DNA from: Betaproteobacteria bacterium
GTDB lineage: Bacteria; Pseudomonadota; Gammaproteobacteria; Burkholderiales; Rhodocyclaceae
DNA: 64,000 bases
Direction: 5' to 3'
Assembly (NCBI GenBank): GCA_016194935.1
Contig: JACQAO010000032.1
Span: 1-64,000 of the forward strand
Under the pieces are notes generated by a model, which was given only the letters and a program-made list of their open reading frames with translations, was not told the DNA's origin and searched no databases. Both the position numbers and the translations under genes were made by a program. How positions within the stretch are numbered: the first letter of the stretch is position 1; every line of letters starts with the position of its first letter. Below, piece by piece: positions 6,511-49,140 of this stretch.

Positions 6511-8226
6511 CTATGCCGCCTTTTCCCTGACGTAACGCCCTGGCGCCGGCTCGCTGGCGACGTGGATAGTACTCCCAAGCCGGTCGCGCGCCTTGCGCTG
6601 TTTGCCGCCAAAGCCCGCCAGCCATGTGGCCCAGCTTGCCCACCAGCTCCCTTTGTGCTCGGTTGCACCGGCCAGCCATTTTTCCGGCAGATCGCTATCG
6701 CTGTCACTGCTCCAATAGCTGCGCTTGTTTTTCCCCGCCGGATTAATCACTCCGGCGATATGGCCGCTGGCGCCCAGGGTGTAGCGGGTTTCGCCGCCCA
6801 GCAGGCGGCGCGACAGGTAAGAGGTTTTCCACGGCACGATATGGTCCTCGCGCGATGCGTACAGAAAAGCCGGTACATCAATTCGACCGAGATCTGCCTT
6901 GACGCCGCACATCTCAAGCTTGCCCGGCGCCCGCAAGTTGTTTTCCAGATAGAGATTGCGCAGGTACCAGGCGGCGAACGGCCCCGGCAGATTGGCGCCG
7001 TCGGCGTTCCAGTAGAGCAGATCGAAGGCTGAAGGCTTGCCGCCTTTCAGATAATTGCCGACGACGTATTGCCAGATCAAATCGTTGGCGCGCAGGCTGG
7101 AGAATACCGAAGCCAACTCGCTGCCCTTCAAAATTCCGCCTTTGCCGATGCTCGCCTCACGCATCGCCACCGAATTTTCGTCGATAAAGCAGCCGAGTTC
7201 GCCCGGTTCGGAAAAATCCAGCAGTGTCGTCAGCAGCGTCAGCGACGCCGCCGGATTTTCGCCGCGTGCCGCAGCCACCGACAACGCCGACGCCAGGATG
7301 GTGCCGCCGACACAGAAGCCCAGCGCGTTCACCTGCTCGACTTTGCAAATTTCCTGCGCCACTTTGAGCGCGGTCAGCGCGCCTTTTTCAACATAATCGT
7401 CCCATCCCAAGTGGCCGAGATCGGCTTGGGGGTTGCGCCAGGACACCATGAACACCGTGTTGCCCTGTTCCACCGCATAGCGCACCAGCGAATTTTCCGG
7501 TTGCAAGTCGAGTATGTAGTATTTGTTGATGCACGGCGGCACCATCACCAGCGGACGCTGCGCCACCTGGCCGGTGAGCGGCGCGTACTGGATTAACTGG
7601 ATCAACTCATTTTCATACACCACTGCGCCCGGCGTGACCGCCAGGTTGCGCCCGACCTCAAAAGCCGCATCGTCGGTCATCGAAATCCGCCCCTTCTCGA
7701 TGTCGGCGATCAGGTTCTGGATACCGGCGGTGATGCTGTGGCCCTGGGTTGCCAATGCTGCCTGGATAAATTCGGGATTGGTGGCGGCGAAATTCGACGG
7801 CGCCATTGCATCCACAAGCTGCCGGGTGATGAAACGCAGCCGGCTTTGCGCACGCGCATCGGGGGCCGGCACGGCCTCGACCAGTTTGTCCATGAACTCG
7901 GCATTGATCAGATAGGCTTGGCGCAGGTAATCGTAAATCGGGCTCTCGCTCCATCCCGGCGCAGCGAAACGGCGGTCACCGGGGTCGGGCAAGGCCACTG
8001 CCGGCGCAGCTTGATCGGCCTGGCGCTCAAGCTGCGCCCGCCACAGTTGAGCGTGTCGTTCAAGCAGTTGCTGCTGCAATTTTTTCAGCTTCTCCGACTG
8101 CACTGTCGATGCAGCCGTTGCTGACCCCAGCGCTACCTGCTGAGCCGCCAGCCACTGCGAAAAACCCTGCGTCCACGCTTGACCGGTCTGCAACAATGAC
8201 TGCATGGGATCGGGTGTTGCTGACAT
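6511..8226 (-). CDS. phaC: class I polyhydroxyalkanoate synthase PhaC
   Basis: PhaC (571 residues) polymerises (R)-3-hydroxyacyl-CoA into PHA on the granule surface. The lipase-like box GFCVGG gives the catalytic Cys at about residue 305. The Asp is in YASREDHIVPW and the His in LGASGHIAGVINP, followed by the family signature NKRSYW. The N-terminal region of about 100 residues is typical of class I enzymes, which need no PhaE or PhaR subunit. It is the first gene of phaC-phaB-phaB-phaR and diverges from nadC across 188 bp. No beta-ketothiolase (phaA) lies in the window. Confidence 0.96.
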   Translation of the reverse strand: MSATPDPMQSLLQTGQAWTQGFSQWLAAQQVALGSATAASTVQSEKLKKLQQQLLERHAQLWRAQLERQADQAAPAVALPDPGDRRFAAPGWSESPIYDYLRQAYLINAEFMDKLVEAVPAPDARAQSRLRFITRQLVDAMAPSNFAATNPEFIQAALATQGHSITAGIQNLIADIEKGRISMTDDAAFEVGRNLAVTPGAVVYENELIQLIQYAPLTGQVAQRPLVMVPPCINKYYILDLQPENSLVRYAVEQGNTVFMVSWRNPQADLGHLGWDDYVEKGALTALKVAQEICKVEQVNALGFCVGGTILASALSVAAARGENPAASLTLLTTLLDFSEPGELGCFIDENSVAMREASIGKGGILKGSELASVFSSLRANDLIWQYVVGNYLKGGKPSAFDLLYWNADGANLPGPFAAWYLRNLYLENNLRAPGKLEMCGVKADLGRIDVPAFLYASREDHIVPWKTSYLSRRLLGGETRYTLGASGHIAGVINPAGKNKRSYWSSDSDSDLPEKWLAGATEHKGSWWASWATWLAGFGGKQRKARDRLGSTIHVASEPAPGRYVREKAA

Positions 8227-9720: not shown

Positions 9721-11171
9721 CAGCGGTGGTGGTTCGGCGGTTCAGTAGTGTGTGCTGCGATGTAATCTTTAATGACCTGGGCATCAGCGGCCAGCACTGC
9801 GAAACGCTGCGGCAGGTCTTCGATGCCTGCCAGAGCGGCTGGCCGCTCCGGCTCCCGGCCAAGCGCCTCACGAATGGTTTCCTCAAATTTCACCGGCAAA
9901 GCCGTCTCCATGCACACCAAAGGCACGCCTGACTCACGTTGCTCCAGGCCGACTTTGAGACCATCTGCGGTATGCGTGTCGATCATCACCTGGTACTGCT
10001 GCCAGACGCGGCGGATGGTGGCCAGGCGGTCGGCGTGGCTGCTGCTGCCGGAGACCATGCCGAACCTGGCGATCCCGGCGAAATGCCTGGCGCCTGAAAG
10101 ATCAAAAGCCCCGCCTGCATCCACTTTGCCCCATAGCTCGCGCACGCTCGCGCCGTCGCGTCCCACCAGGTCGAAAGCGAAACGCTCGAAATTGGAGGCC
10201 TTGGAAATATCCATTGAGGGACTGCTGGTCTGAAAGGTCTGCGCCGTGGCGCGCGGACGGTACACGCCGGTGCGGAAAAATTCGTCGAGCACATCGTTTT
10301 CGTTGGTGGCGAGAATCAGTTTCCTGATCGGCAAGCCCATCATGCGGGCGATGTGGCCGGCGCAGATATTGCCGAAATTACCGGAAGGCACCGCAAAGGA
10401 AACCTGCTCGTCATTGGACTTGGTGGCGGCGAAATATCCTTTGAAGTAATACACGATCTGCGCCGCGACGCGCGCCCAGTTGATCGAATTAACTGTGCCG
10501 ATCCTGTGGCGTTCCTTGAAGGCGTGATCGTTACTGACGTTCTTGACGATGTCCTGGCAGTCGTCGAACACGCCGCGCACGGCGATATTGAAGATATTCG
10601 GGTCTTGCAGCGAAAACATCTGCGCCGTCTGGAAACGGCTCATCTTGCCGTGCGGCGAGAGCATGAAGACGCGGATGCCACGCTTGCCGCGCATCGCATA
10701 CTCCGCCGAAGAGCCGGTATCGCCCGAGGTGGCGCCGAGGATGTTGAGTTCGGCGCCGGACTTGGCGAGCACGTACTCGAACAGATTGCCGAGCAACTGC
10801 ATCGCCATGTCCTTGAAAGCCAGCGTCGGGCCGTTGGAGAGTTCCAACAGATGCAGGCCCGGCGCCAGGGTGCGCAGCGGGGTAATTTCATCGGCAGCGT
10901 CGCCGGGGCGCAGATTGCAATACGTCGCCGCCGTGTAGCTGCGGTCGACCAGCGTTTTGAGATCGCCGGCGGGAATGTCGGTAATGAATTTTTCCAGCAC
11001 CTTGAAGGCCAGCGCGGGATAAGACAACTCACGCCATTCCGTCAGTTCGGCAGAGGTGACGCGCGGATAGCTTTCCGGCAGATACAGGCCGCCATCCGGC
11101 GCAAGCCCAGCAAGCAATATCTCGGTAAAACTTTTCGTCGGCGAATTACCGCGGGTACTCAGGTAGCGCAT
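9720..11171 (-). CDS. thrC: threonine synthase ThrC
   Basis: ThrC (483 residues) is a PLP enzyme converting O-phosphohomoserine to threonine. The start MRYLSTRGN and the PLP lysine motif NGPTLAFKDMAMQ (about residue 110) are typical. ATSGDTGSSAEYAM is the phosphate-binding loop and VPSGNFGNICAG is also present. It lies 3 bp after hom, so both belong to one operon read leftward, alaA-GNAT-hom-thrC. The stop codon abuts the repeat element at 9575-9720, so that element will be in the 3' end of the mRNA. Confidence 0.97.
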   Translation of the reverse strand: MRYLSTRGNSPTKSFTEILLAGLAPDGGLYLPESYPRVTSAELTEWRELSYPALAFKVLEKFITDIPAGDLKTLVDRSYTAATYCNLRPGDAADEITPLRTLAPGLHLLELSNGPTLAFKDMAMQLLGNLFEYVLAKSGAELNILGATSGDTGSSAEYAMRGKRGIRVFMLSPHGKMSRFQTAQMFSLQDPNIFNIAVRGVFDDCQDIVKNVSNDHAFKERHRIGTVNSINWARVAAQIVYYFKGYFAATKSNDEQVSFAVPSGNFGNICAGHIARMMGLPIRKLILATNENDVLDEFFRTGVYRPRATAQTFQTSSPSMDISKASNFERFAFDLVGRDGASVRELWGKVDAGGAFDLSGARHFAGIARFGMVSGSSSHADRLATIRRVWQQYQVMIDTHTADGLKVGLEQRESGVPLVCMETALPVKFEETIREALGREPERPAALAGIEDLPQRFAVLAADAQVIKDYIAAHTTEPPNHHR

Positions 11172-11174
11172 TAT

Positions 11175-12488
11175 TTATCTATCCAGCGCCTCCAGCCGCA
11201 AGCGGATCACCTTGCGCTTCACCACCGGCAGCGCCTCGATTTTCGCAATCGCGGCATCCACCTTTTTTTCCTGGGTGACATGGGTCAGCATGATGATGTC
11301 GGTCTGCTCCTCGTCCGCGTCCGGCTCGCGCTGGATCATGGCGTCGATGGAGATGTCCTGGTCGGCCAGGATGCGGGTAATCTCGGCCAGCACGCCGGGC
11401 TTATCCTCGACGCGCAGGCGCAGGTAGTAGCTGGTCTCCACTTCCGCCAGCGGCAGAATCGGCGTGTTCGCCAGCGCATCCGGCTGAAAGGCCAGGTGCG
11501 GCACGCGGTGCTCGGGATCGGCGGTGTGCATGCGGGTGACATCAACCAGGTCGGCGATCACCGCCGAGGCGGTGGGTTCGGCCCCTGCCCCCTTGCCGTA
11601 GTAGAGCGTGGCGCCAACCGCGTCGCCCTGCACCAGCACGGCGTTCATCGCCCCTTCAACATTGGCGATCAGCCGCCGGGTGGGAATCAGGGTCGGATGC
11701 ACGCGCAGCTCAATGCCGCTCTCCTTGCGCTTGGTAATGCCGAGCAGCTTGATGCGATAACCGAGTTGTTCGGCATATTTAATGTCTGCCGCGTCGAGCC
11801 TGGCGATGCCCTCGATGTGCACCTTGTCGAACTGCATCGGGATGCCGAAGGCGATGGCCGCCATGATGGTCAGCTTGTGCGCAGCATCGACGCCCTCGAT
11901 ATCAAAAGTCGGATCGGCCTCGGCATAACCCAGCCGCTGCGCCTCCTGCAACACCGTGGCGAAGGGCAGGCCCTTGTCGCGCATTTCGGAGAGGATGAAG
12001 TTGGTGGTGCCGTTGATGATGCCGGCGATCCACTGGATGCGGTTGGCGGTGAGCCCCTCGCGCAGCGCCTTGATGATCGGGATGCCGCCTGCCACCGCCG
12101 CCTCGAAGGCCACCATCACCCCCTTCTTTTGTGCGGCGGCGAAAATTTCATTGCCGTGCATGGCCAGCAGCGCCTTGTTGGCGGTGACTACATGTTTGCC
12201 GTTCTCGATAGCCTTCAGCACCAGTTCCTTCGCAATGCCGCAGCCGCCGATCAGCTCGACAACAATATCAACTTCGGGGTCAGCAACCACTGCAAAAGCA
12301 TCGTCGGTGAGGCGCGACTTGCCTTGCGTGACCTGCTGCGCCAGTTTCAGATTCTTGTCGGCGACCACGGATATGCGGATCGGGCGTCCGGCGCGGCGGG
12401 TGATCTCGCTTTCGTTGCGACTGAGCACGGCGTATGTACCACCGCCGACGGTGCCGATGCCGAGAAGTCCTACGTTGATGGGTTTCAT
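11175..12488 (-). CDS. hom: homoserine dehydrogenase Hom
   Basis: A single-function homoserine dehydrogenase (437 residues) reducing aspartate semialdehyde to homoserine, the branch point to threonine and methionine. It starts MKPINVGLLGIGTVGGGT with the Rossmann motif. The catalytic region has GIINGTTNFIL and YAEADPTFDIEGVDAAHKL. A C-terminal ACT domain (from about residue 350, RVEDKPGVLAEIT) should give threonine feedback control. The ATG overlaps the GNAT stop by four bases (ATGA), so an upstream in-frame start is unlikely. Confidence 0.97.
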   Translation of the reverse strand: MKPINVGLLGIGTVGGGTYAVLSRNESEITRRAGRPIRISVVADKNLKLAQQVTQGKSRLTDDAFAVVADPEVDIVVELIGGCGIAKELVLKAIENGKHVVTANKALLAMHGNEIFAAAQKKGVMVAFEAAVAGGIPIIKALREGLTANRIQWIAGIINGTTNFILSEMRDKGLPFATVLQEAQRLGYAEADPTFDIEGVDAAHKLTIMAAIAFGIPMQFDKVHIEGIARLDAADIKYAEQLGYRIKLLGITKRKESGIELRVHPTLIPTRRLIANVEGAMNAVLVQGDAVGATLYYGKGAGAEPTASAVIADLVDVTRMHTADPEHRVPHLAFQPDALANTPILPLAEVETSYYLRLRVEDKPGVLAEITRILADQDISIDAMIQREPDADEEQTDIIMLTHVTQEKKVDAAIAKIEALPVVKRKVIRLRLEALDR

Positions 12489-16366: not shown

Positions 16367-16734
16367 ATGCCATCAGCTTAGGCTTAGTCCTCGCCGGCGT
16401 GCTGCTCAACGCCGCCGCCCAGAACCTGCTCAAGGCCGGCACCAATGCCGTCGGGCATTTCGAATTCCATCTCGACAATGCCGTTCAAGTTGGCCTCAAG
16501 CTGGCGATGGAGCCGCACATCCTCGGCGGCATGGCCTGTTACGCAGTGAGCCTGGTGGTGTGGATCATGGCACTGTCGCGGGTACCGGTGAGCATCGCCT
16601 ACCCGATGATTTCGATTGGCTATGTCATCACCGCCTTCGTCGCCTGGCAGTGGCTCGGTGAAGACCTCACCGCGCAAAAATTGATCGGCATCAGCTTTAT
16701 CATGGTGGGTGTTTTCCTGGTGGCGCGCTCATGA
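16363..16734 (+). CDS. small EamA/SMR-type carrier, ArnE/ArnF-like
   Basis: A 123-residue protein with four membrane segments of the small multidrug resistance/EamA type. In E. coli, ArnE and ArnF form a flippase that moves undecaprenyl-phosphate-aminoarabinose across the inner membrane. Here one gene sits between arnT and arnB, overlapping both by four bases (ATGA). It may act as a homodimer. Blocks such as ISIAYPMISIGYVITA match the conserved EamA core in outline. No second subunit gene is seen in the window. Confidence 0.85.
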   Translation: MNAISLGLVLAGVLLNAAAQNLLKAGTNAVGHFEFHLDNAVQVGLKLAMEPHILGGMACYAVSLVVWIMALSRVPVSIAYPMISIGYVITAFVAWQWLGEDLTAQKLIGISFIMVGVFLVARS

Positions 16735-17755
16735 GTTTCCTCCCCTTCACCCGTCCCGACATCGACGAAGCAACCATCGCCGACGTCGCCGAAGTGCTGC
16801 GTTCCGGCTGGCTCACCACCGGGCCGAAGGCGAAGGAATTCGAGGCGCAGTTATCTGCTTACTGCGGAGGCCGCCCGGTGCGTGTCTGCAACTCCGGCAC
16901 CGTTACCATGGAGTTCGCGCTGCGCCTGGCCGGCATCGGCCGGTGTTCGTGGACATCGACCCGGCCACCCGCAACATCGACCTCGACCTGATCGAAGCCG
17001 CCATCACTCCTGCAACCCGCGCCATCATCCCGGTCGACATCGCCGGCCTGCCGGTCGACCGCGACCGGCTCTACGCCATCGCCCAACACCACAAACTGCG
17101 CGTGATTGAGGACGCCGCCCAGTCTTTCGGCGCTTCCTGGGGAGGACGGAAAATCGGCGTTATCGGCGACTTCGTCTCCTTCAGCTTTCACGCCAACAAG
17201 AACATCACCACCGGCGAAGGCGGCGCGTTGGTGCTGCCCGTCGATACCGATCCCGCCCTATGCGAGCGCCTGCGCCTGCAAGGCGTGCGGCGCTTCGGCG
17301 AAGACGGCATGGATGTTGAGACGCCCGGCGGCAAGGCCAACCTGACCGACATCGCCGCCGCTATCGGCCTCGGCCAGTTGAAACGGCTGGAGGAATTCAC
17401 CGCGCGCAGGCATCATTTGGCGCGGCGCTACTTTGAACTTTTCAATCGCAAGCTCGGCTGCGAACTGCCGCCGGAGGATTTCGAAAATTCCAATTGGCAT
17501 ATGTTCCAGGTGCTCCTGCCGCCGGGCTGCGAGCGCGCCAAGTTCATGGCGGCCATGCGCGAACGCGGCATCGGCATCGGCGTGCATTATCCGGCGATGC
17601 ACCTATTCACCCTCTACCGCAAACTCGGCTGGAAGGCCGGCGACTTCCCGCAGGCCGAGCGGGTGGGCGCGGCCACCGTCAGCCTGCCACTGTTTCCGGC
17701 GATGGCCGACACGGATGTGGATCGCGTTTGCTCGGTTATGTCTGATCTGCTTTGA
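16731..17755 (+). pseudogene. arnB: arnB (UDP-L-Ara4O aminotransferase), broken by an internal deletion and frameshift
   Basis: The first 70 codons read as an ArnB/DegT-type aminotransferase (LPFTRPDIDEATIAD...SGWLTTGPKAKEFE...CNSGTVTMEFALRLAGIG). At about 16940 the frame changes and the match resumes with PVFVDIDPATRNIDLD in another frame, continuing to 17755. That part includes the PLP-lysine motif SFHANKNITTGEGG and the C-terminal GIGVHYPAMH block. Around 25 residues expected between the two parts are absent, so roughly 70-80 bp are missing (length 3n+1). The deletion removes part of the cofactor pocket. Real decay or an assembly error are both possible. Confidence 0.88.
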
Positions 17756-17787
17756 GCAACTTGTCTTGCCCGCCAAATCACCCGAGA

Positions 17788-17806
17788 GTATGATCCATAG
17801 TCATAC
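17788..17806. promoter_or_regulatory. candidate operator of the RHH-MazF module
   Basis: Inverted repeat GTATGA-N7-TCATAC, ending three bases before the Shine-Dalgarno GGAG of the antitoxin gene. Ribbon-helix-helix antitoxins usually repress their own promoter through such short symmetric sites. Confidence 0.55.
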
Positions 17807-17821
17807 TTGGAGAAAAACGTC

Positions 17822-18064
17822 ATGCTGCGAGCCAAAGTTGCTATATCGCTTGATCAAGAGACCCTGGAACGAGTCGACCGGCTGGTCAGCGCCCGTGTGT
17901 TCGAAAATCGTAGCCGAGCCATCGAGGAAGCGATCGAGGAGAAGCTGGTGCGTTTGGAGCGCTGCCGCCTGGCACAGGAATGCGCCAAGCTTGATCCGGT
18001 GTTCGAGAAATCGCTTGCGGAAGAGGGCCTTTCTGCGGACGTGGCGGCATGGCCAGAATACTGA
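17822..18064 (+). CDS. ribbon-helix-helix antitoxin
   Basis: An 80-residue protein with a ribbon-helix-helix (CopG/MetJ-like) N-terminus: AKVAISLDQETLERVDRLVS then NRSRAIEEAIEEKL. The acidic C-terminus (ECAKLDPVFEKSLAEEGL) would wrap the toxin. ATG 17822 is chosen because GGAG lies nine bases upstream; the frame opens further from a TTG. It overlaps the MazF-type gene by 16 bases. This is the first gene past the broken arnB and marks the left edge of the accessory block. Confidence 0.88.
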   Translation: MLRAKVAISLDQETLERVDRLVSARVFENRSRAIEEAIEEKLVRLERCRLAQECAKLDPVFEKSLAEEGLSADVAAWPEY

Positions 18065-18387
18065 GGGGAGAAATCCGCTGGGCCGATCTAAACCCGACAC
18101 GAGGCCATGAGCAGAGTGGGTTGCGTCCGGTTCTGATCCTGAGCCAGGATGTATTCAACGAACGTTCCGGGACCGTCATCGCCGTCGCCATCACCAGCCA
18201 GCCGCAACGTGCCGGCTTTCCGCTGACGCTGGAAATTGCTCCGCCGCAGCCGCCCAAACGGGCCTGGGTGAAGATCAGTCAAATCCGTACCCTGGCCGTT
18301 GAGCGTATCGGTCGCAAGCTAGGCCGCGCCGCATCGGAAGAAATGATCCGTATTGTTGAAGGCCTGAATGAAATCATCGATGCCTGA
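18049..18387 (+). CDS. MazF/PemK-type endoribonuclease toxin
   Basis: A 112-residue toxin of the MazF/PemK/CcdB fold, which cuts mRNA at specific sequences. The start LRGEIRWADLNPTRGHEQ and GLRPVLILSQDVFN contain the conserved Arg/Pro pattern. The Thr/Ser active-site strand is seen in VIAVAITSQP, and the second conserved arginine region is SQIRTLAVERIGRKLG. The length is normal and nothing suggests inactivation. It is paired with the overlapping ribbon-helix-helix antitoxin upstream. Confidence 0.93.
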   Translation: MARILRGEIRWADLNPTRGHEQSGLRPVLILSQDVFNERSGTVIAVAITSQPQRAGFPLTLEIAPPQPPKRAWVKISQIRTLAVERIGRKLGRAASEEMIRIVEGLNEIIDA

Positions 18388-18462
18388 GTCAAAAGTAGCT
18401 AGAGTTTTCTCAGCCATGTACAAGGTGTATGGTGCATTGAGCGAACTTTTCCGGTAACCCAC

Positions 18463-19002
18463 GTGAACCCACACATCACACCGATTGCCGTTCCAAGCGC
18501 CAGCCTCATCAGTAAACAATTGCAGGATGCCAATTTCTTTGACGCCTACGAAATGCCCCTGAAGCACCAGGGACGTTCGGCGCTGGAAATCTATCTTGAT
18601 GTCGTTTGCCGCACCCCCGCCTGGGTCAATTTCCTCATGGCGACCCGCAATCACATCGTATCGCTGTTCGGCTTGAAGAACCTTGGTCACCTCGGCGACG
18701 GCACTCGAAGCAAACCTGTGTCGGCCTATCGAGTCGGGGATCGTGTGGGTATTTTTTCCCTGCTGTCGTTGACCGACGAGGAAATCATTCTGGGCGATTC
18801 CGACAAGCATCTGGATGTAAAAGTCTCCGTCTGCAAACTCAACCCCGGCGCCCGCGAGTCGATAGCCATCTCGACCGTGGTGCATATACACAATCTACTG
18901 GGCCGGGTCTACATGTTCTTCGTCGCCCCCGTGCATAGACTCATCGTTCCCGCCACTCTGGCGCGGGCAAGCAGTGCCTCTCCCTTTACACCAGATCACT
19001 AA
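18463..19002 (+). CDS. DUF2867 domain protein
   Basis: A 179-residue protein of the DUF2867 family, function unknown. Recognisable features are the central RVGDRVGIFSLLSLTDEEIILGDSDKHLD and the C-terminal HNLLGRVYMFFVAPVHRLIVP. Such proteins occur alone or fused to NAD-binding epimerase-like domains; here it is alone. The start is a GTG with no clear Shine-Dalgarno sequence. It sits between the first TA module and a GFA-family protein and may belong to the same short run of cargo genes. Confidence 0.8.
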   Translation: MNPHITPIAVPSASLISKQLQDANFFDAYEMPLKHQGRSALEIYLDVVCRTPAWVNFLMATRNHIVSLFGLKNLGHLGDGTRSKPVSAYRVGDRVGIFSLLSLTDEEIILGDSDKHLDVKVSVCKLNPGARESIAISTVVHIHNLLGRVYMFFVAPVHRLIVPATLARASSASPFTPDH

Positions 19003-19017
19003 GCTATGGAGCCTCAC

Positions 19018-19413
19018 ATGCACAAAGGAAGCTGTCTTTGCGGAGCAGTGGAATACAAGATCACCGGTCCACTCGGCCCGATCATGTTTTGCCATTGCTC
19101 GCGCTGCAGAAAGGCAAGTGGTTCGGCATTCAATTCGGTCTCCCCCATTCCCGCCGCCTCTTTTCGCATCATCAAGGGCGAGGAATCCCTGCGCAGCTAC
19201 CGCGCCGACACCGGTGTGGTGAGAGTGTTTTGCGGCACTTGTGGTTCGCCCATCATCGGCAAGCGCGACGACCTGCCAGACACCGTGCGGCTGCGCATCG
19301 GCACGCTGGATACGCCGGCAGGCGCAAAAGGCGCCGCGCATATATTCGTCGGCTCGAAAGCGCCCTGGGATGAAATTCTCGACGATTTGCCGCAGCATCA
19401 GGAGCGTCCATAG
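19018..19413 (+). CDS. GFA / CENP-V domain zinc protein
   Basis: A 131-residue protein of the glutathione-dependent formaldehyde-activating (GFA) fold. Zinc-binding cysteines are arranged as GSCLCGAVEY, CHCSRCRKASGS and VFCGTCGSP, the usual family set. Many members have unknown substrates, so no formaldehyde role is claimed. ATG 19018 is favoured over 19006 because GGAG lies seven bases before it and the family begins MHKGSCLCG. It ends 48 bases before the MerR regulator gene. Confidence 0.9.
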   Translation: MHKGSCLCGAVEYKITGPLGPIMFCHCSRCRKASGSAFNSVSPIPAASFRIIKGEESLRSYRADTGVVRVFCGTCGSPIIGKRDDLPDTVRLRIGTLDTPAGAKGAAHIFVGSKAPWDEILDDLPQHQERP

Positions 19414-19431
19414 CGTTTTGTCAAATACCTC

Positions 19432-19462
19432 TTGACTTAGAGTGCACTCCAAGACTTAGCAT
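19432..19462 (+). promoter_or_regulatory. MerR-type promoter/operator
   Basis: TTGACT (19432-19437) and TAGCAT (19457-19462) are separated by 19 bp, the long spacer typical of MerR-controlled promoters. The spacer region holds the near palindrome CTTAGAGTGCACTCCAAG centred on GTGCAC. The -10 box overlaps the annotated ATG of the regulator gene, so transcription should begin inside or just after it. Confidence 0.7.
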
Positions 19463-19871
19463 GGTCGTCGTGACCAGCAATGCCATCACCATCGGCGAGT
19501 TTGCCCTGCGTAGCGGCTTGAGCACCCATACGATCCGTTATTACGAACGGGTGGGTGTGCTCAAACCTGGCGGACGCGCAGCCAACGGCCATCGCCGTTA
19601 TCACGACAGCGATGTCCTGTGGCTGGAGTTCGTGCTGCGGCTCAAGCACATCGGCATGCCGCTGGCGGAGATCAAACGCTATGCTGATCTTCGGGCGCAG
19701 GGTGACACGACATTGCAAGCGCGGTACACGATGCTCAAGCTCCATCGTGTACGCCTGGCCGCCAAAATGACCGAGCTTTCCGAGTGTGCCGATGTCCTCG
19801 ACGACAAGCTTCGTACTTATCGAAAAATGCTCGCCAAGGCGCAGCCGCCTACAGGGAAAACCAGAAAATGA
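19461..19871 (+). CDS. MerR-family transcriptional regulator
   Basis: A 136-residue MerR regulator. The winged helix-turn-helix begins TIGEFALRSGLSTHTIRYYERVG and continues NGHRRYHDSDVLWLEFV. A coiled-coil dimer helix follows (about residues 85-125). There is no metal-binding cysteine cluster at the C-terminus, so it probably senses a small molecule or aldehyde-type stress rather than mercury. A GTG at 19470 is a plausible alternative start, given the promoter position. It overlaps the next gene (ATGA), so it likely autoregulates the pair. Confidence 0.92.
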   Translation: MVVVTSNAITIGEFALRSGLSTHTIRYYERVGVLKPGGRAANGHRRYHDSDVLWLEFVLRLKHIGMPLAEIKRYADLRAQGDTTLQARYTMLKLHRVRLAAKMTELSECADVLDDKLRTYRKMLAKAQPPTGKTRK

Positions 19872-20284
19872 ACTCAGCAACCAGCGAAGTACAACAGTCA
19901 ACAGAGACCAGCCGCTATGTGCGCGGCTGGGAAAAGCTGCGCGAGATCGACGGCAAGGCTGGCGAGAATGTAATCGCCGCACTCGCCGACATTGCCCCCG
20001 ATTTCGCAAAACTATTGATCGAAATTTTCGGCGACATCTATTCACGGCCACAACTCGCGCTCAAGTCCCGTGAAATTGGCGTCGTCGCCGCCCTAACCGC
20101 CCTCGGCAACGCAACGCCGCAATTGAAAGTGCATCTTCACGCCGCCCTCAACGTCGGCTGCACGCGGGAAGAAATCGTCGAAATCATCATGCAAATGGCC
20201 GTCTATGCCGGCTTCCCTGCCGCCCTCAACGGCCTGTTCGCGGCCAAGGAAGTTTTCGCCGAGCGTGAGCTTGCCGAGCAGTAA
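19868..20284 (+). CDS. carboxymuconolactone decarboxylase family protein
   Basis: A 138-residue protein of the CMD/AhpD-like fold. The core reads SREIGVVAALTALGN, then LKVHLHAALNVGCTREEIVEIIMQMAVYAGFPAALNG, which matches 4-carboxymuconolactone decarboxylase-like members. There is no CxxC pair, so an AhpD-type peroxidase role is unlikely. ATG 19868 overlaps the MerR stop (ATGA), indicating coupled translation. The true substrate is unknown. A GC-rich hairpin (GCGCGGC-GTTA-GCCGCGC) lies just after the stop. Confidence 0.9.
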   Translation: MNSATSEVQQSTETSRYVRGWEKLREIDGKAGENVIAALADIAPDFAKLLIEIFGDIYSRPQLALKSREIGVVAALTALGNATPQLKVHLHAALNVGCTREEIVEIIMQMAVYAGFPAALNGLFAAKEVFAERELAEQ

Positions 20285-20420
20285 AGTACGGCGCGGCGTT
20301 AGCCGCGCTACCCAGTGGTGACCGGCAGTGACGTAGAGAGGTAGAAATGGTTTGCACGATCATGCAGGAAACACTTACAATGTGCATGAATCTTCAAAAC
20401 CATACACACAGGGCAACGCA

Positions 20421-20615
20421 ATGCGTACCAATATCGTGATCGACGACCAACTCATGCAGCAAGCCGCCCGCCTGACGAAATTGCCGACCAAGCGCGAAAT
20501 TGTTGAGACCGGCCTGCGCGTGCTGATCCAGATCAAGCGGCAGGAAATGATCCGCGCCTCGCGCGGTAAATTGAAGTGGTCTGGCGACCTGGACTCTTTG
20601 CGAACCGACCGATAA
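20421..20615 (+). CDS. vapB: VapB-type antitoxin
   Basis: A 64-residue antitoxin. RTNIVIDDQLMQQAARLTKL is the usual VapB N-terminus (strand plus helix for DNA binding), then PTKREIVETGLRVLIQIKRQ, and a basic, Trp-containing tail (GKLKWSGDLDSLR) that blocks the toxin active site in this family. ATG 20421 is used; the longer frame from 20352 adds residues unlike the family. It lies six bases before vapC. Confidence 0.9.
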   Translation: MRTNIVIDDQLMQQAARLTKLPTKREIVETGLRVLIQIKRQEMIRASRGKLKWSGDLDSLRTDR

Positions 20616-20621
20616 GCGGCG

Positions 20622-21014
20622 ATGATAGTCGTCGACTCGTCCGTCTGGATCGACTATTTCAACGGTATCGTCAATCCGCAAACAGAGAGACTCGACGCCG
20701 GGCTGGGAAGTGAGTTGATCCTCGTCGGCGACCTGATCCTGGCCGAGGTGTTGCAGGGTTTCGAGCGCGATGCCGATTATCGCAAGGCCAAAAGCCTGTT
20801 TGAATACCTGGAATTCAGGGAAATGCTCGGCCGTGATGTGGCGCTGGCAAGCGCGGAAAACTATCGCAAGCTGCGAAAGCAAGGCATTACCATACGCAAA
20901 ACCATAGATATGCTGATCGGCGCCTACTGCATCTTGAACCGCCTGCCACTACTTCATCGGGACCGCGATTTCGAACCGATGACTCAGCATCTGGGCTTGC
21001 TCGTTGCACAATAA
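20622..21014 (+). CDS. vapC: VapC-type PIN-domain ribonuclease toxin
   Basis: A 130-residue PIN-domain RNase. Acidic catalytic residues are in VVDSSVWIDYFNG (Asp near residue 5), the ILAEVLQGF glutamate (about 44) and the TIDMLIGAYC aspartate (about 95). PLLHRDRDFEPM carries the last acidic site. VapC toxins usually cut initiator tRNA or rRNA. All catalytic positions look intact. It is paired with the vapB immediately upstream. Confidence 0.93.
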   Translation: MIVVDSSVWIDYFNGIVNPQTERLDAGLGSELILVGDLILAEVLQGFERDADYRKAKSLFEYLEFREMLGRDVALASAENYRKLRKQGITIRKTIDMLIGAYCILNRLPLLHRDRDFEPMTQHLGLLVAQ

Positions 21015-21059
21015 ACGGCAGAAAATGCCGCGATTCACAAATTAACCGGACACTACGAC

Positions 21060-21461
21060 ATGGCTTCGAAAACACCACAACCCACCGAAATCAAACTGCA
21101 CCAGAAATCGCGCACGCTGGAAATCGGCTTTGCCGACGCCAAGACCTTCAGCCTGCCGTGCGAGTTTCTGCGCGTCTATTCGCCATCCGCCGAAGTACGC
21201 GGCCATGGCCCGGGCCAGGAAGTGCTCCAGACCGGCAAAAAGAACGTCGAGATCACCGCCATCGAGCCGGTCGGAACCTACGCTATTCTGCTGCGATTTT
21301 CCGATGGTCACGACACCGGAATCTACTCATGGGATCTGCTCTACGATTATGGAATACGCCAGGAAGAGATGTGGCAGCATTATCTTGAGCGTATGAAAGA
21401 GGCGGGGGCGAGCCGGGAGCCGGGTTCAACGCCCTTCGAGCAACGACCGAAATCAAAATAG
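21060..21461 (+). CDS. DUF971 protein (gamma-butyrobetaine hydroxylase N-terminal-like)
   Basis: A 133-residue DUF971 protein. The N-terminal IKLHQKSRTLEIGFADAKTF and CEFLRVYSPSAEVRGHG, then GTYAILLRFSDGHDTGIYSWDLLYDYG, match the small zinc-binding fold also found at the start of gamma-butyrobetaine hydroxylase. In many betaproteobacteria such a gene lies next to ubiE; here no ubiE follows. It ends 11 bases before the CCAEP-tail radical SAM gene on the same strand, so co-transcription is likely. Function unknown. Confidence 0.88.
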   Translation: MASKTPQPTEIKLHQKSRTLEIGFADAKTFSLPCEFLRVYSPSAEVRGHGPGQEVLQTGKKNVEITAIEPVGTYAILLRFSDGHDTGIYSWDLLYDYGIRQEEMWQHYLERMKEAGASREPGSTPFEQRPKSK

Positions 21462-21472
21462 CGGGGTTATCC

Positions 21473-22912
21473 ATGTTGCCCCAGCTTGCGCCATCTCCTG
21501 CCGTGGAAGCGATGGGACTCTTCAAGGTCGTCCTGATCAATCCTTACGAGCTGGGACGGCAGCCGTTTGCCCTGGCGCAGCCTGCCGCCTTGCTCAAGCG
21601 CGCTGGCATGGCGGTGAGCTGCCTCGATCTTTCGCTGCAAAAACTCGACCCGGAAATTCTGAAGGATGCCGACCTGGTCGCTGTTTACGTTGGCATGCAT
21701 ACCGCCACCCGCATTGCCATCGAAGCCATCCCGCGCATCCGCGAGATCGCGCCGCAGGTGCATGTGTGCGTATATGGCCTGTATGCGCCGATGAATCAGC
21801 AGAGGCTGCGTAGCCTCGGCGTGAAAACCATACTCGGCGGCGAATTCGAGCCGGGGCTGGTGAGCCTGGCGCAGCGGCTGCGCAGCGGCGAAGCTGGAGG
21901 TGTGCAAACCGAACCGCTTATCAATCTGGCCAAAATCGAATTCATTACGCCCGACCGCTCCGGCTTGCCAGAATTGCAACGCTATGCCCATTTGATATTG
22001 CCGGATGACAGAAAAAAAATGACTGGTTTCATTGAGGCCAGCCGCGGCTGCAAACATTTGTGCCGCCATTGCCCGGTGGTGCCGGTGTATCAAGGTAAAT
22101 TTCGCATTGTGCCGGTTGAGGTGGTGATGGCCGACATTGCGCAGCAGGTTCAGGCGGGTGCGACACACATTTCTTTCGGCGACCCGGATTTTTTCAACGG
22201 GACTACGCACGCCATGAAAGTGCTGACTGCCATGCACGACAAGTTTCCCCACTTGAGCTTCGACGCCACCATCAAGATTCAGCACCTGATTAACCATGCC
22301 GAGTTGTTGCCGGCGCTCAAGGCGGCAGGTTGCTTATTCATCACCTCGGCAGTCGAGTCGGTGGATGACCGGGTGCTTGAGCATTTTGCCAAGAACCATA
22401 CGCGCGCCGACTTTGAGCACGCTTTGCAACTGTGCCGCGCAGCGGACATATTCCTGGCGCCGACGTTTGTGGCATTCACGCCCTGGACTACGCGGGAGGG
22501 CTACCTCGACCTGCTCGGCACGCTGCTGCGCCTGCGCCTGGTGGAGGCGGTGCCTTCGATTCAGCTCTGCATACGCCTGCTGGTACCGGAAGGTTCCTAT
22601 TTGCTTCAACTGCCCGGTTTCCGGGAAATGGTCGGAGCGTTCGATACGAAACTGCTCGGCTACCCCTGGCGACATGCCGATCCTGCCGTGGATGCGCTCC
22701 AGCAGGCAGTGCAGACCTGTGCCGCACAAGGTGAACAACAGGGATTGGCGCGCGAGGATATATTCGAACAAATCTGGCAGCTCACCCATGCGGCGCTCGA
22801 CCGTACTGCACCGCCGCTCGCGCAAGTGGATTTTGGCGCACCCATCGCACGCTTGTCGGAGCCTTGGTACTGCTGTGCCGAACCCACCGAGCAACAACTG
22901 CAAAGCTTTTAA
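21473..22912 (+). CDS. CCAEP-tail radical SAM protein with B12-binding-like N-terminus
   Basis: A 479-residue radical SAM enzyme. Residues 16-140 look like the B12-binding-type domain of HemN/RlmN-distant radical SAM enzymes (VVLINPYELGRQPFALAQPAALL). The cluster motif is CKHLCRHC (Cys193, Cys197, Cys200), followed by ISFGDPDFFNGTTHAMKVL and a SAM-barrel to about residue 350. The tail ends WYCCAEPTEQQLQSF. I recognise a family named for a CUAEP or CCAEP tail, where the first position can be selenocysteine; here it is TGC, so Cys467. The reaction is unknown. It lies 11 bp after DUF971 and 9 bp before an ATP-grasp gene. Confidence 0.88.
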   Translation: MLPQLAPSPAVEAMGLFKVVLINPYELGRQPFALAQPAALLKRAGMAVSCLDLSLQKLDPEILKDADLVAVYVGMHTATRIAIEAIPRIREIAPQVHVCVYGLYAPMNQQRLRSLGVKTILGGEFEPGLVSLAQRLRSGEAGGVQTEPLINLAKIEFITPDRSGLPELQRYAHLILPDDRKKMTGFIEASRGCKHLCRHCPVVPVYQGKFRIVPVEVVMADIAQQVQAGATHISFGDPDFFNGTTHAMKVLTAMHDKFPHLSFDATIKIQHLINHAELLPALKAAGCLFITSAVESVDDRVLEHFAKNHTRADFEHALQLCRAADIFLAPTFVAFTPWTTREGYLDLLGTLLRLRLVEAVPSIQLCIRLLVPEGSYLLQLPGFREMVGAFDTKLLGYPWRHADPAVDALQQAVQTCAAQGEQQGLAREDIFEQIWQLTHAALDRTAPPLAQVDFGAPIARLSEPWYCCAEPTEQQLQSF

Positions 22913-22921
22913 GCACACATC

Positions 22922-24116
22922 TTGAAGCGCGTTCTGCTGCTGTTGCCCACCACCAGTTACCGCAACCAGGATTTCCTGGATGCCGCGAAAAACCTCGGGG
23001 CGGACATCATCACTGCCGCAGATTATTGCCATCAACTCGCGCCGCTGTGGGGCATGAGCCCGATTCAGGCAGTGCCATTTGATCAGCCCGAAGTCGCAGT
23101 GAAGCAGGTGCTGGCTGCGCTGGGAAGCCCGCCGGATGCGGTGCTGGCGGTGGACGACAGCGGCCTGGAACTGGCGGCGCTGCTGCGCGTACAGTTGCAC
23201 TTGCCGGGCAACCTGCCCGCTGCGATGCGCGTGACGCGCGACAAACTGGCGTTTCGCCGATTACTGCAAGATGCCGGCCTGAACTGCCCGGATTTTTATC
23301 ACCTCGACAACATCAGCCGGTCACCTACGCTACAGGCCCCGCTGCAATTCCCGGTGGTCGTCAAAGCACGCCAGCTTTCTGCCAGCCGTGGCGTGATTCG
23401 GGCAGACACCCCCCAGGCATTCAAGCAAGCCGTGCAATCGGTGCAAAGAATACAGCGCAAAGCCGACCGCGATGCCGCCCAACTGGGACTGGTCGTGGAG
23501 AGCTTCATTCCCGGTCGTGAATACGCACTGGAAGGCTTGCTGGTGGAAGGCCGCTTGCGCGTGCTGGCGCTGTTCGACAAACCCGATCCGCTCGACGGCC
23601 CCTACTTCGAAGAAACCCTTTACATCACGCCGTCGCGCCTGCCTCAAGACCGGCAAGACGAAATCAGCCAGACCGTGCAACGCGCCTGCGCATTGGCCGG
23701 GCTGATGAGCGGACCGATCCATGCGGAAATGCGCCTGAACGAACAAGGCGTCTGGCTGCTGGAAATCGCCGCACGCTCCATCGGCGGCCTGTGCGGCAGA
23801 ATGCTGCGCCATGCACTGGGCATGAGCCTGGAAGAACTGATCTTGCGTCACGCCTTGAACCTGCCGTTGCCGCAAACTTTTTCTGGGCGTGCGCCATCTC
23901 GACGACGCACTGCGCATCGCCGGTATCGGCGACATCCAGATCACCGCCCAGCCCGGCCAGGTCATAGCGCCGCCGCCGGAAGGCGCAAGCTACCTGGGTT
24001 TTATCTTCGCTCGCGCAACATCCGCAGACACAGTTGAGTCTGCGCTGCGGCAAGCGCATCAGCGGCTGGTCTTCGATATCCAGACCGGGATGCCGGTGAG
24101 TGCTTACAACACATAA
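22922..24116 (+). pseudogene. ATP-grasp ligase, C-terminus broken by a small deletion and frameshift
   Basis: The first 320 residues read as an ATP-grasp carboxylate-amine ligase: FPVVVKARQLSASRGVIR, VESFIPGREYALEGLL, MSGPIHAEMRLNE and WLLEIAARSIGG (metal-binding region). At about 23880 the frame changes. The expected C-terminus (FLGVRHLDDALRIAGI, EGASYLGFIFARA, ending 24116) continues in another frame. About 20 residues normally lie between these parts, so a deletion of roughly 60 bp (3n+2) is likely. The start is TTG. The tight spacing to the CCAEP-tail radical SAM gene suggests a shared pathway, ligating or activating an amino acid-like product. Confidence 0.8.
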
Positions 24117-24136
24117 AGCCGCAGGACTTTTTCTGG

Positions 24137-24150
24137 TGTAACATGTTACA
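24137..24150. promoter_or_regulatory. operator palindrome of the MazEF module
   Basis: Perfect 14-bp palindrome TGTAACATGTTACA, 22 bases before the antitoxin start. The position and symmetry fit autoregulation by the antitoxin dimer. Confidence 0.65.
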
Positions 24151-24172
24151 TCGAGAAAATCGAAGGAAAGCC

Positions 24173-24382
24173 ATGCCAACAACCGCCCCCGCCCCACGCA
24201 TGCAGCAATACCGCCAGAGGCTGAGAGCCGCCGGACTGCGCCCGATTCAGCTGTGGGTACCGGACACCAAGGCGCCCGGATTCGCCGAGGAATGCCGTCG
24301 GCAATCCGCGGCACTGGCACATGATTCCGCAGAACTCGACGCCGCCAAGTTCATCGAAGCTGCGGGGGCTTGGAACGCATGA
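24173..24382 (+). CDS. MazE-like antitoxin (DUF3018 type)
   Basis: A 69-residue antitoxin of the DUF3018/MazE-like family, with the characteristic run MQQYRQRLRAAGLRPIQLWV then PDTKAPGFAEECRRQS, and an Ala-rich C-terminus. This group regularly precedes MazF toxins. ATG 24173 is used because the family begins shortly before MQQYR; an earlier in-frame ATG at 24143 falls inside the operator palindrome. The stop overlaps the toxin start (ATGA). Confidence 0.9.
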   Translation: MPTTAPAPRMQQYRQRLRAAGLRPIQLWVPDTKAPGFAEECRRQSAALAHDSAELDAAKFIEAAGAWNA

Positions 24383-24714
24383 GCGATTTTCGCCGCGGCG
24401 ATCTCGTGTCTGTAGCAGTCCAGGGTAATTTCGGCAAGCCGCGTCCGGCGCTGGTTGTCCAGTCCGACCTGTTCAACGAAACCCATCCCACGGTGATGCT
24501 GTGTCTCGTCACCTCGGAACTGCGGGAAGCGCCCATATTCCGGCTAACGGTGGAACCCGCAGCAGCCAACGGACTCAAGCAAACCTCGCAAGTACAGATC
24601 GACAAGGTAATGACCGTATTGCGCGAGAAGGTCGGCCCCAGCTTCGGTCGACTTGATGATGCAATGATGGTCAAGGTCAATCGGGCGCTGGCAGTATTCG
24701 CAGGAATCGCGTAA
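24379..24714 (+). CDS. MazF-family endoribonuclease toxin
   Basis: A 111-residue MazF/PemK toxin. FRRGDLVSVAVQGNFGKPRPALVVQSDLF has the conserved Gly-Lys-Pro-Arg-Pro turn, and VMLCLVTSELR holds the Thr-Ser active-site strand. QVQIDKVMTVLREKVG is the expected C-terminal block. It overlaps the DUF3018 antitoxin by four bases. It differs clearly from the other MazF at 18049, so the two are not recent duplicates. Confidence 0.93.
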   Translation: MSDFRRGDLVSVAVQGNFGKPRPALVVQSDLFNETHPTVMLCLVTSELREAPIFRLTVEPAAANGLKQTSQVQIDKVMTVLREKVGPSFGRLDDAMMVKVNRALAVFAGIA

Positions 24715-24778
24715 ATGCGGCCTCGGATTACTCCAATTGCTTCGGGGTACAATTTGTCATGAAGATTCGGAGGTTGCT

Positions 24779-24994
24779 ATGACACGCCAGTTTGATGTGA
24801 TTGTTGAAAAGGATTCGGCAGGATACTTTGTTGCCTCGGTTCCAGTGCTTCCCGGCTGTCACACGCAGGCAAAATCGCTCGACGCTCTGATGGAGCGCAT
24901 CCGCGAAGCCATAGAACTGTGTCTTGAAGTTCGGGATGACTCCCTGGAACCGCTGGATTTTGTCGGAGTTCAACGCATTTCAATTGCGGCATGA
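24779..24994 (+). CDS. hicB: HicB-type antitoxin
   Basis: A 71-residue HicB N-terminal-type domain protein: FDVIVEKDSAGYFVASVPVLPGCHTQAKSLDAL is the partial RNase H-like fold of HicB antitoxins. No separate helix-turn-helix follows, so this is a short HicB. A strong Shine-Dalgarno sequence, GGAGG, precedes the ATG. The stop overlaps the hicA start by four bases. Confidence 0.92.
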   Translation: MTRQFDVIVEKDSAGYFVASVPVLPGCHTQAKSLDALMERIREAIELCLEVRDDSLEPLDFVGVQRISIAA

Positions 24995-25215
24995 CGACGG
25001 TTCCCAGCCTGACCGGCAAAAAACTGTTGTCGACCTTGAAGAAAGCTGGTTTCGAAATACTCCGCGTCAAAGGCAGTCACCATTTTATTCGCCACCCTGA
25101 CGGTCGTTCGACTGTAGTGCCAGTTCACACCGGCGAAACTATTGGGCCGGGACTGTTCGCCAAAATTCTTCGTGATTGTGATTTGAATCGCGAGCAGTTT
25201 CTAAAACTCTTATAG
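24991..25215 (+). CDS. hicA: HicA-type mRNA interferase toxin
   Basis: A 74-residue HicA toxin with the dsRNA-binding fold: GKKLLSTLKKAGFEILRVKGSHHFIRHPDG contains the catalytic His of the family (GSHH), followed by VVPVHTGETIGPGLFAKILRD. The order antitoxin-then-toxin is the reverse of the classical hicA-hicB arrangement but is common for short HicB partners. It ends nine bases before a relic of arnC. Confidence 0.93.
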   Translation: MTTVPSLTGKKLLSTLKKAGFEILRVKGSHHFIRHPDGRSTVVPVHTGETIGPGLFAKILRDCDLNREQFLKLL

Positions 25216-25223
25216 TATCCAAC

Positions 25224-25292
25224 ATGGTTACATCCACCGAACGCTCTATCGTCATCCCCGTGTACAACGAGGAATCAGGCATTGCTGCGTTG
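25224..25292 (+). pseudogene. relic of an arnC 5' end
   Basis: Bases 25237-25292 match the start of the intact arnC (25875-25930) at 51 of 56 positions. They encode the same SIVIPVYNEESG-AAL stretch after an ATG at 25224. The match then stops abruptly and the reading frame ends a few codons later. It is a diverged partial copy, not a working gene, and suggests that DNA entered at the arnC start. Confidence 0.85.
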
Positions 25293-25295
25293 CTG

Positions 25296-25337
25296 GGGAA
25301 TTCGAGCCCGCCCCTTTCTGTTCTTCTATGAATTCCC
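25296..25337. repeat. inverted repeat around the GNAT start codon
   Basis: GGGAATTC (25296-25303) and GAATTCCC (25330-25337) form a perfect 8-bp stem across 26 bases. The right arm includes the last base of the ATG at 25328, so the RNA stem could limit access to the start codon. Confidence 0.45.
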
Positions 25338-25831
25338 GGATATATCTTCGTCCCCCAGCGATTGCTGATCAGCGCGAGTTTTTGGCGGCGGTTCGCAGGA
25401 GCCGTTCGCTGCACCATCCGTGGACAACTGCACCATCCACTCCGAAGCAGTTTCACGTTCACCTTGATCACATGACGCCACCAGCGAACTGTGCCTTCCT
25501 CGTCTGCCTGCGCGATAGTGAAAGCATCGCTGGCGTAATCAACATCACGAACATCGTCCTGGGCCTGTTTCGCAGCGGCTATCTTGGTTACTACGCCTTC
25601 GCCGGGCATGAAGGACAGGGACTCATGCGTGAGGGGATGCAAGCCGTGGTTTGTCACGCCTTCAAGGTATTAAAACTGCATCGTCTTGAAGCCAACATTC
25701 AACCCGATAACCTGGCGTCCATTGCATTGGTCAAGTCTTGCGGATTCTCAAGAGAAGGCTATTCGCCGCGCTACCTGAAGATTGGCGGTCGCTGGCGTGA
25801 TCATGAGCGCTGGGCCATTCTTGCTTCGTAA
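25328..25831 (+). CDS. GNAT-family acetyltransferase (RimJ-like)
   Basis: A 167-residue acetyltransferase of the RimJ/RimL-like GNAT group: IYLRPPAIADQREFLAAV at the start, LGYYAFAGHEGQGLMREGMQAV as the acetyl-CoA loop, and HRLEANIQPDNLASIALVKSCGF at the C-terminal core. RimJ-type enzymes acetylate protein N-termini, but the substrate here is not known. It is wedged between the arnC relic and the intact arnC, so it may be cargo of the same insertion. Confidence 0.88.
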   Translation: MNSRIYLRPPAIADQREFLAAVRRSRSLHHPWTTAPSTPKQFHVHLDHMTPPANCAFLVCLRDSESIAGVINITNIVLGLFRSGYLGYYAFAGHEGQGLMREGMQAVVCHAFKVLKLHRLEANIQPDNLASIALVKSCGFSREGYSPRYLKIGGRWRDHERWAILAS

Positions 25832-25855
25832 TCGCCGTATGCAACCAAACCTGCC

Positions 25856-48981: not shown

Positions 48982-49047
48982 CGCATCCTCCTTTCAACTG
49001 CATATCGCGTGTCGCCATAGTCGGCTCCCAAGGACAGGAAGAACGGG

Positions 49048-49140
49048 CGGAAGAGAGTGGGAGTCGAACCCACCAGGGACCGCTTGGCGGCCCCTGCCGG
49101 TTTTGAAGACCGGCCGCCTCACCGGGGGACGATCTCTTCC
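49048..49140 (-). tRNA. selC: tRNA-Sec (anticodon TCA)
   Basis: A 93-nt selenocysteine tRNA without an encoded CCA. It has the 8-bp acceptor stem GGAAGAGA/TCTCTTCC, G73, anticodon loop CTTCAAA (TCA) and a long variable arm (GGGGCCGCC-AAGC-GGTCCCT region), all unlike ordinary tRNAs. It begins two bases after the selB gene end, so selA-selB-selC form one unit. Confidence 0.97.

Follow-up and report, generated by a model that had tools for sequence, protein, structure and literature searches.

What does a radical S-adenosylmethionine (SAM) enzyme with a cysteine tail make, and does the ATP-grasp ligase encoded next to it take part? This question is raised by a short gene set in the 64,000-nucleotide stretch of Rhodocyclaceae DNA analysed here (contig JACQAO010000032.1 of assembly GCA_016194935.1, positions 1 to 64,000, referred to as the window). 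Three open reading frames (ORFs) on the + strand, encoding a DUF971 protein, a radical SAM protein and an ATP-grasp protein, follow each other with spacings of 11 and 9 bp, just as an earlier reading of the letters alone (the original prediction) had described them. The radical SAM and ATP-grasp pair hints at a small-molecule pathway that has not yet been described. Sequence comparison makes ArsL the sister of the radical SAM protein, and we put at roughly 0.4 the probability that it makes a γ-substituted 2-aminobutanoate from the 3-amino-3-carboxypropyl (ACP) group of SAM, which the ligase would then join into a dipeptide.

The radical SAM protein, its tail and ArsL

The radical SAM protein, whose start may lie later, at residue 14, is a full member of NF040546, covering model positions 1–467 of 468 at a score well above the cut-off of 500 (Table 1), and the CUAEP/CCAEP-tail family invoked by the original prediction does exist. 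It matches Pfam Radical_SAM with 48 bits, and WYCCAEP at residues 465–471 agrees with the C-[C/U]-A-E-P signature. The next family is NF040542 (ArsL) at 258.7 bits, and every other family listed scores 45 bits or less (the next 44.8). In an alignment (A2) of 26 CUAEP and 6 ArsL rows, 40 columns are invariant, of which three are the cluster cysteines, one is Cys467 and 36 are further positions. Cys468 is nearly invariant, and all six ArsL rows end in KRCCLKC. Yao and coworkers reportedly found in 2024 that arsenite is bound by the RCCLKC tail. The original prediction was silent on the kinship with ArsL, which we rank as the best clue to the chemistry. ArsL alone gives hydroxyarsinothricin in Escherichia coli from As(III), and its proposed reaction is the transfer of ACP from SAM to As(III) (PMC8552651); a 2025 review cites a radical SAM enzyme that carries out ACP radical transfer to arsenic (PMC12159101).

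A more conventional chemistry, in which the enzyme uses the ordinary 5′-deoxyadenosyl radical, the tail acts as a redox pair or as a ligand of an auxiliary cluster, and a C–S or C–Se bond or some other change in a small molecule results, with the ATP-grasp protein perhaps ligating the product, is possible but rather doubtful. The score well under the ArsL cut-off, the different tail, the canonical CX3CX2C motif and weak matches to B12-type radical SAM methylases and AprD4 are all compatible with it. However, the ArsL score is six times higher than those of the weak matches, the match to the B12-binding domain PF02310 (17.7 bits) is below the Pfam cut-off of 32.1, and the DxHxxG motif is absent from the first 150 residues. 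An AlphaFold model of the protein (5 sequences) has a mean predicted local distance difference test score of 60.7, with values under 50 in the tail.

The tail is conserved, as the original prediction had expected, with W[YF]CC[AS]EP present in the main ORF of 26 of the 29 radical SAM loci. In the remaining three, the tail is in a shifted frame (L054), the sequence is cut off before the tail (L005), or it reads WFC-TGA-AEP (L030, a plasmid of Thermomicrobium roseum). Selenocysteine had been proposed for the first cysteine of the tail, residue 467. A version with TGA does exist, so the proposal holds in part, but the in-frame TGA aligns with the second cysteine, residue 468, and in the window this codon (22874–22876) is TGT, i.e., cysteine, so that the window protein is not a selenoprotein at this site. 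The hairpin that follows the Thermomicrobium TGA folds no better than shuffled versions (89 of 200 were as good), and hence the case for selenocysteine in that protein comes from the AEP residues beyond the TGA and from the family name. The public annotation of the Thermomicrobium gene (9935–11371) stops at the in-frame TGA, and the AEP tail is consequently missing from the annotated protein. Another genome (G174) contains two radical SAM copies, L046 and L054, and the latter is spread over more than one frame; ATP-grasp has no match in this genome.

The ATP-grasp gene and its association with the radical SAM gene

The ATP-grasp protein of the window matches ATP-grasp_4, and the solved structure closest to the profile built for its family (A1) is that of BL00235 (PDB 3vot; 216 bits, nearly full length), an L-amino-acid ligase listed as making Met-Gly and Met-Met (PMC6920838). 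Its presence was surveyed in a class draw of 369 genomes, in searches that scored at most four candidates per genome, such that absences may be overcounted. The radical SAM gene was found in 23 of these genomes and the ATP-grasp gene in 66, namely in 19 of the 23 with the radical SAM gene versus 47 of the 346 without it (Fisher p = 3e-12). Leaving out the window genome and four model-linked genomes gave 14/18 versus 47/346 (p = 6e-9), and in 43 selected genomes that were searched more fully the counts were 19/23 versus 1/20. By taxonomic family, ATP-grasp is present in 14 of the 15 that are positive for the radical SAM gene (in f31, in a different genome), a comparison whose p-values take the total number of families as 150 or 180. 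The radical SAM gene is rare near home, since the phylum draw (1/398) and the family draw (1/121) found only the genome of the window each time; draws at the level of the order, made around G015 and G093, contained 1 and 2 genomes, respectively. The family was not confirmed in any viral contig, and the 17 plasmid records comprise 1 of the CUAEP type and 16 of the ArsL type. One contig scan of genomes gave five loci, and L006 (36% over ~80 residues), which showed no hit when the loci were searched again, was dropped before the counts were made.

The homologues do occur beside ATP-grasp genes, as had been anticipated, and an ATP-grasp gene is present somewhere in the stretch examined for 8 of the 29 radical SAM loci, several of these stretches being short; in the class-draw genomes the ATP-grasp gene is mostly located away from the radical SAM gene. 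Apart from ATP-grasp, no neighbour family is common to more than 5 of the 29 loci. Same-strand gaps of 9–16 bp separate the two genes in the window, L002–L004, L043 and L047, while in L045 and L048 the ATP-grasp gene is on the opposite strand with a YggX-like gene between. The copies adjacent to a radical SAM gene need at least four label changes in the ATP-grasp tree, two of them forced by well-supported branches. In 16 genomes that have the radical SAM gene, the ATP-grasp gene and a separately placed DUF971 gene, radical SAM and ATP-grasp distances correlate with r = 0.80, and the partial correlation is 0.70 after taking account of the DUF971 distance (0 of 2000 permutations), which is a rough stand-in for species history because DUF971 is short. 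The proposed pairing is supported by co-occurrence, by adjacency in several lineages and by correlated distances, but it is not obligatory, as ATP-grasp also occurs in the 47 genomes mentioned above. In L047, a SaoD/DsrE-family gene (NF040913, 183 bits; 6542–6880) is located just past the radical SAM and ATP-grasp genes of G334.

The surroundings of the ATP-grasp gene were examined in 20 regions (13 from genomes with the radical SAM gene and 7 from genomes without; L143–L162), in 19 of which the gene was called. A YggX-like gene is present in 15 of the 20 and a gene resembling an A-type iron-sulfur (Fe-S) carrier in 14, and one or the other is the immediate neighbour in 17 of the 19, with or without a radical SAM gene in the genome. 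The copies in L048 were checked against NCBIfam (PRK05408, 97 bits; TIGR00049, 84 bits), and the remaining ones were assigned by clustering and by eye. This pattern points to a role of the ATP-grasp protein beyond the radical SAM enzyme and weighs against the simplest form of a shared pathway. The two proteins could accordingly belong to separate pathways, the ATP-grasp protein having an iron or Fe-S function and the co-occurrence reflecting the same lifestyle, and the genomes with ATP-grasp alone would fit such a separation. We consider it unlikely, however, given the short same-strand gaps in six loci, distances that correlate beyond what DUF971 accounts for (with the roughness of that stand-in), and label changes which suggest that adjacency arose more than once. 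A reversed order is more improbable still; here the ATP-grasp protein would first produce a small peptide or an amide, and the radical SAM enzyme, as a peptide-modifying enzyme, would act on it afterwards. The linkage data are compatible with either order of steps and there is a weak match to C-methyltransferases of ribosomally synthesized and post-translationally modified peptides (15.5 bits), but the substrate of ArsL is inorganic (PMC8552651), and 4 of the 23 genomes with the radical SAM gene are without ATP-grasp by the A1 search.

In the window, the ATP-grasp gene is broken. It had been taken as intact and as reading through to 24116, but the ORF is out of frame from ~23880 and stops at 24037 in the wrong frame, with 53 nt missing near 23880 by alignment with L002. 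The A1 profile correspondingly matches in two pieces, positions 2–318 and then 335–410 in another frame. The copies in L002, L003 and L004 are intact (72–85% identical over the core, 415–417 aa, with a VMMIPIP block), and the LAL_C2 domain that is present in the L002 and L048 copies is not in frame in the window ORF because the frame is lost after the 53-nt gap. The ligase step has therefore probably been lost in this genome, although a fault of assembly is possible, as ~70–75 nt are likewise missing from the arnB gene of the window.

ATP-grasp genes also accompany ArsL. Six of the 16 ArsL-type plasmid records were opened, and in five of them (from Alicyclobacillus, two Priestia, Klebsiella and Pantoea) an ATP-grasp gene lies no more than two genes from ArsL; in the sixth, from Pseudomonas amygdali, none was found near ArsL. 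A single subfamily comprising the ATP-grasps of both ArsL and CUAEP loci was considered and rejected, as A1 scores and the tree place them on separate branches. The ArsL-linked proteins reach 80–122 bits with A1 versus 223 bits for a copy in a Pantoea locus without ArsL, and hence one ligase was not inherited by both kinds of radical SAM enzyme. For one of the five ArsL-linked ATP-grasps tested, the best solved relative was again BL00235 (90 bits). A 2-amino-4-X-butanoate would mimic methionine or glutamate, and so a methionine-type ligase for both kinds of radical SAM enzyme would make chemical sense. The ArsL-type set on the conjugative plasmid of Klebsiella pneumoniae (L057) includes genes for ATP-grasp, a major facilitator superfamily transporter, ArsM, a GTP-binding protein and an aquaporin, and the Pantoea plasmid (L058) has a similar gene order. 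Carboxymuconolactone-decarboxylase-like genes are found on both sides, those near ArsL encoding ~100 aa and scoring at the Pfam cut-off and that of the window being longer and of the PcaC kind.

DUF971 and the setting of the gene set

The original prediction treated all three genes as one functional set, and this does not hold for DUF971, a core gene found in 30 of the 31 genomes searched (23 with and 8 without the radical SAM gene; a second match in 4) and located beside the radical SAM gene in just 5 of the 29 loci. The three-gene operon was rejected as a conserved unit on these same counts. In this genome DUF971 is single copy and occurs only beside the radical SAM gene. A gene with the UbiE motif is near DUF971 in 27 of 29 other loci (those without the motif being L090 and L094), and in this genome (L163, G000:C16, near 30382) ubiE directly follows the leader and MAGLD codons of DUF971, as seen by eye against L084, which is taken as the scar of the native DUF971 copy. 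In the DUF971 tree, the five proteins linked to radical SAM genes are placed beside, not inside, the eight of the window's family, although the branch around these eight is supported by only 90/87. These data fit import of DUF971 together with the radical SAM gene and a later loss of the native copy, the presumed order of events, and DUF971 is probably a passenger core gene and not a dedicated gene of the pathway.

Table 1. Features of the gene set and its surroundings in the window
Feature	Position	Strand	Evidence
Insertion (~8.1 kb): gene set plus several toxin-antitoxin genes	17756–25855		between arnB and arnC
DUF971 / GBBH-like_N protein, 133 aa, displaced core gene and probable passenger	21060–21461	+	PF06155, 110 bits
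CUAEP/CCAEP-tail radical SAM protein, 479 aa	21473–22912	+	NF040546, 604.4 bits
CX3CX2C motif, Cys193, Cys197, Cys200	22049–22072	+	invariant in 32-row alignment A2
Tail Cys467-Cys468	22871–22876	+	codon 468 aligns with Thermomicrobium TGA
ATP-grasp ORF of the L-amino-acid-ligase type, with a frameshift beyond residue ~320	22922–24037	+	PF13535, 104.4 bits
Homologous C-terminal part, other frame	23888–24116	+	A1 positions 335–410 at 23877–24104
tRNA-Sec	49046–49140		

The gene set lies inside an insertion in the arn genes, as originally stated, and arnB and arnC adjoin in all five of the same-genus or same-family regions fetched (L069–L073). The insertion is rich in toxin-antitoxin genes, including VapB and VapC (20352–21014), a PemK-like gene (24370–24714) and a HicB-like gene (24737–24994). 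The adjacent arnB (16731–17755) is spread over two frames, and the nucleotides it lacks are absent near 16940 by comparison with L069, from the same genus. A complete selA-selB-selC set had also been claimed for this genome. Its tRNA-Sec is present, while the ORFs at 49143–51035 (selB) and 51046–52449 (selA) fit by place, and selB also by its first residues only. A GNAT protein of the window is closest to RimJ but under the RimJ cut-off.

A proposed pathway and its known relatives

The kinship with ArsL, the conserved tail and its TGA variant, the family of the ligase, the co-occurrence and the break are read from sequences, and from them we infer the ACP chemistry, the nature of the element X, the order of steps and the dipeptide. 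The radical SAM enzyme would move ACP from SAM onto a soft atom X bound at the tail, giving a γ-substituted 2-aminobutanoate (2-amino-4-X-butanoate) that mimics methionine or glutamate, and a ligase of the BL00235 type would join this product to another amino acid as a dipeptide. In this genome, with its frameshifted ligase gene, the pathway may stop at the product of the radical SAM enzyme, may be decaying, or may have been misassembled. An extended version, which we regard as unlikely, would make the CUAEP/CCAEP enzymes a second, non-arsenic branch of ACP-radical C–X chemistry in which the Cys-Cys or Cys-Sec tail offers another soft element and which, with the methionine-type ligase, yields an undescribed dipeptide containing a heteroatom. 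With the same low probability, this dipeptide would be an antimetabolite or serve in metal handling, its production being retained in 15 class-draw families and linked with genes for iron and Fe-S functions.

Several observations weigh against the proposed ACP transfer and ligation. The radical SAM protein is under the NF040542 cut-off of 450, the RCCLKC tail is absent, and the window tail is CCAEP and not terminal. Four genomes with the radical SAM gene have no ATP-grasp match (G147, G174, G207 and G299), 47 have the reverse, and no ATP-grasp gene was found within 10 kb of the Thermomicrobium radical SAM gene. The ATP-grasp gene has a YggX-like or A-type carrier-like gene as its neighbour more often than it has the radical SAM gene, the ArsL-linked ATP-grasps score lower with A1 than the Pantoea-locus copy without ArsL, and the ligase gene of this very genome is broken.

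Full-text literature searches, which covered few subscription journals, found no paper on CUAEP, on RCCLKC, on selenoproteins combined with radical SAM and ATP-grasp enzymes, on arsinothricin combined with ATP-grasp, on selenocysteine combined with radical SAM enzymes and arsenosugars, or on amino acid ligases combined with radical SAM enzymes and organoarsenicals. The uncharacterised NF040546 family gains a chemical hypothesis, namely ACP transfer as in ArsL. It also gains a probable partner inherited along with it, a dipeptide ligase, and one tail position at which Cys and Sec differ naturally. If true, ACP-radical chemistry on heteroatoms would extend beyond arsenic, and the genomes in which both genes are intact would be the places to look for the product.

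Among known systems, the window protein differs in nothing from NF040546 at the family level, and that model gives no function. BL00235 is the best solved relative of the A1 profile and the intact relatives of the window ligase have the LAL_C2 domain, whereas the window copy is frameshifted before it. Dph1-Dph2 also uses the ACP group of SAM, and the eukaryotic enzyme has tandem cysteines at its cluster (PMC11048331). The comparison is one of chemistry only, as Dph1-Dph2 is without CX3CX2C and modifies a protein. Compared to ArsL, the window protein has ~45 extra residues before the tail, in addition to its lower score and different ending, and scans of proteins from the window and the CUAEP loci recognised none as the product of an arsenic gene. 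What the two enzymes have in common is the CX3CX2C motif, the Cys-Cys tail and the 36 further invariant columns.

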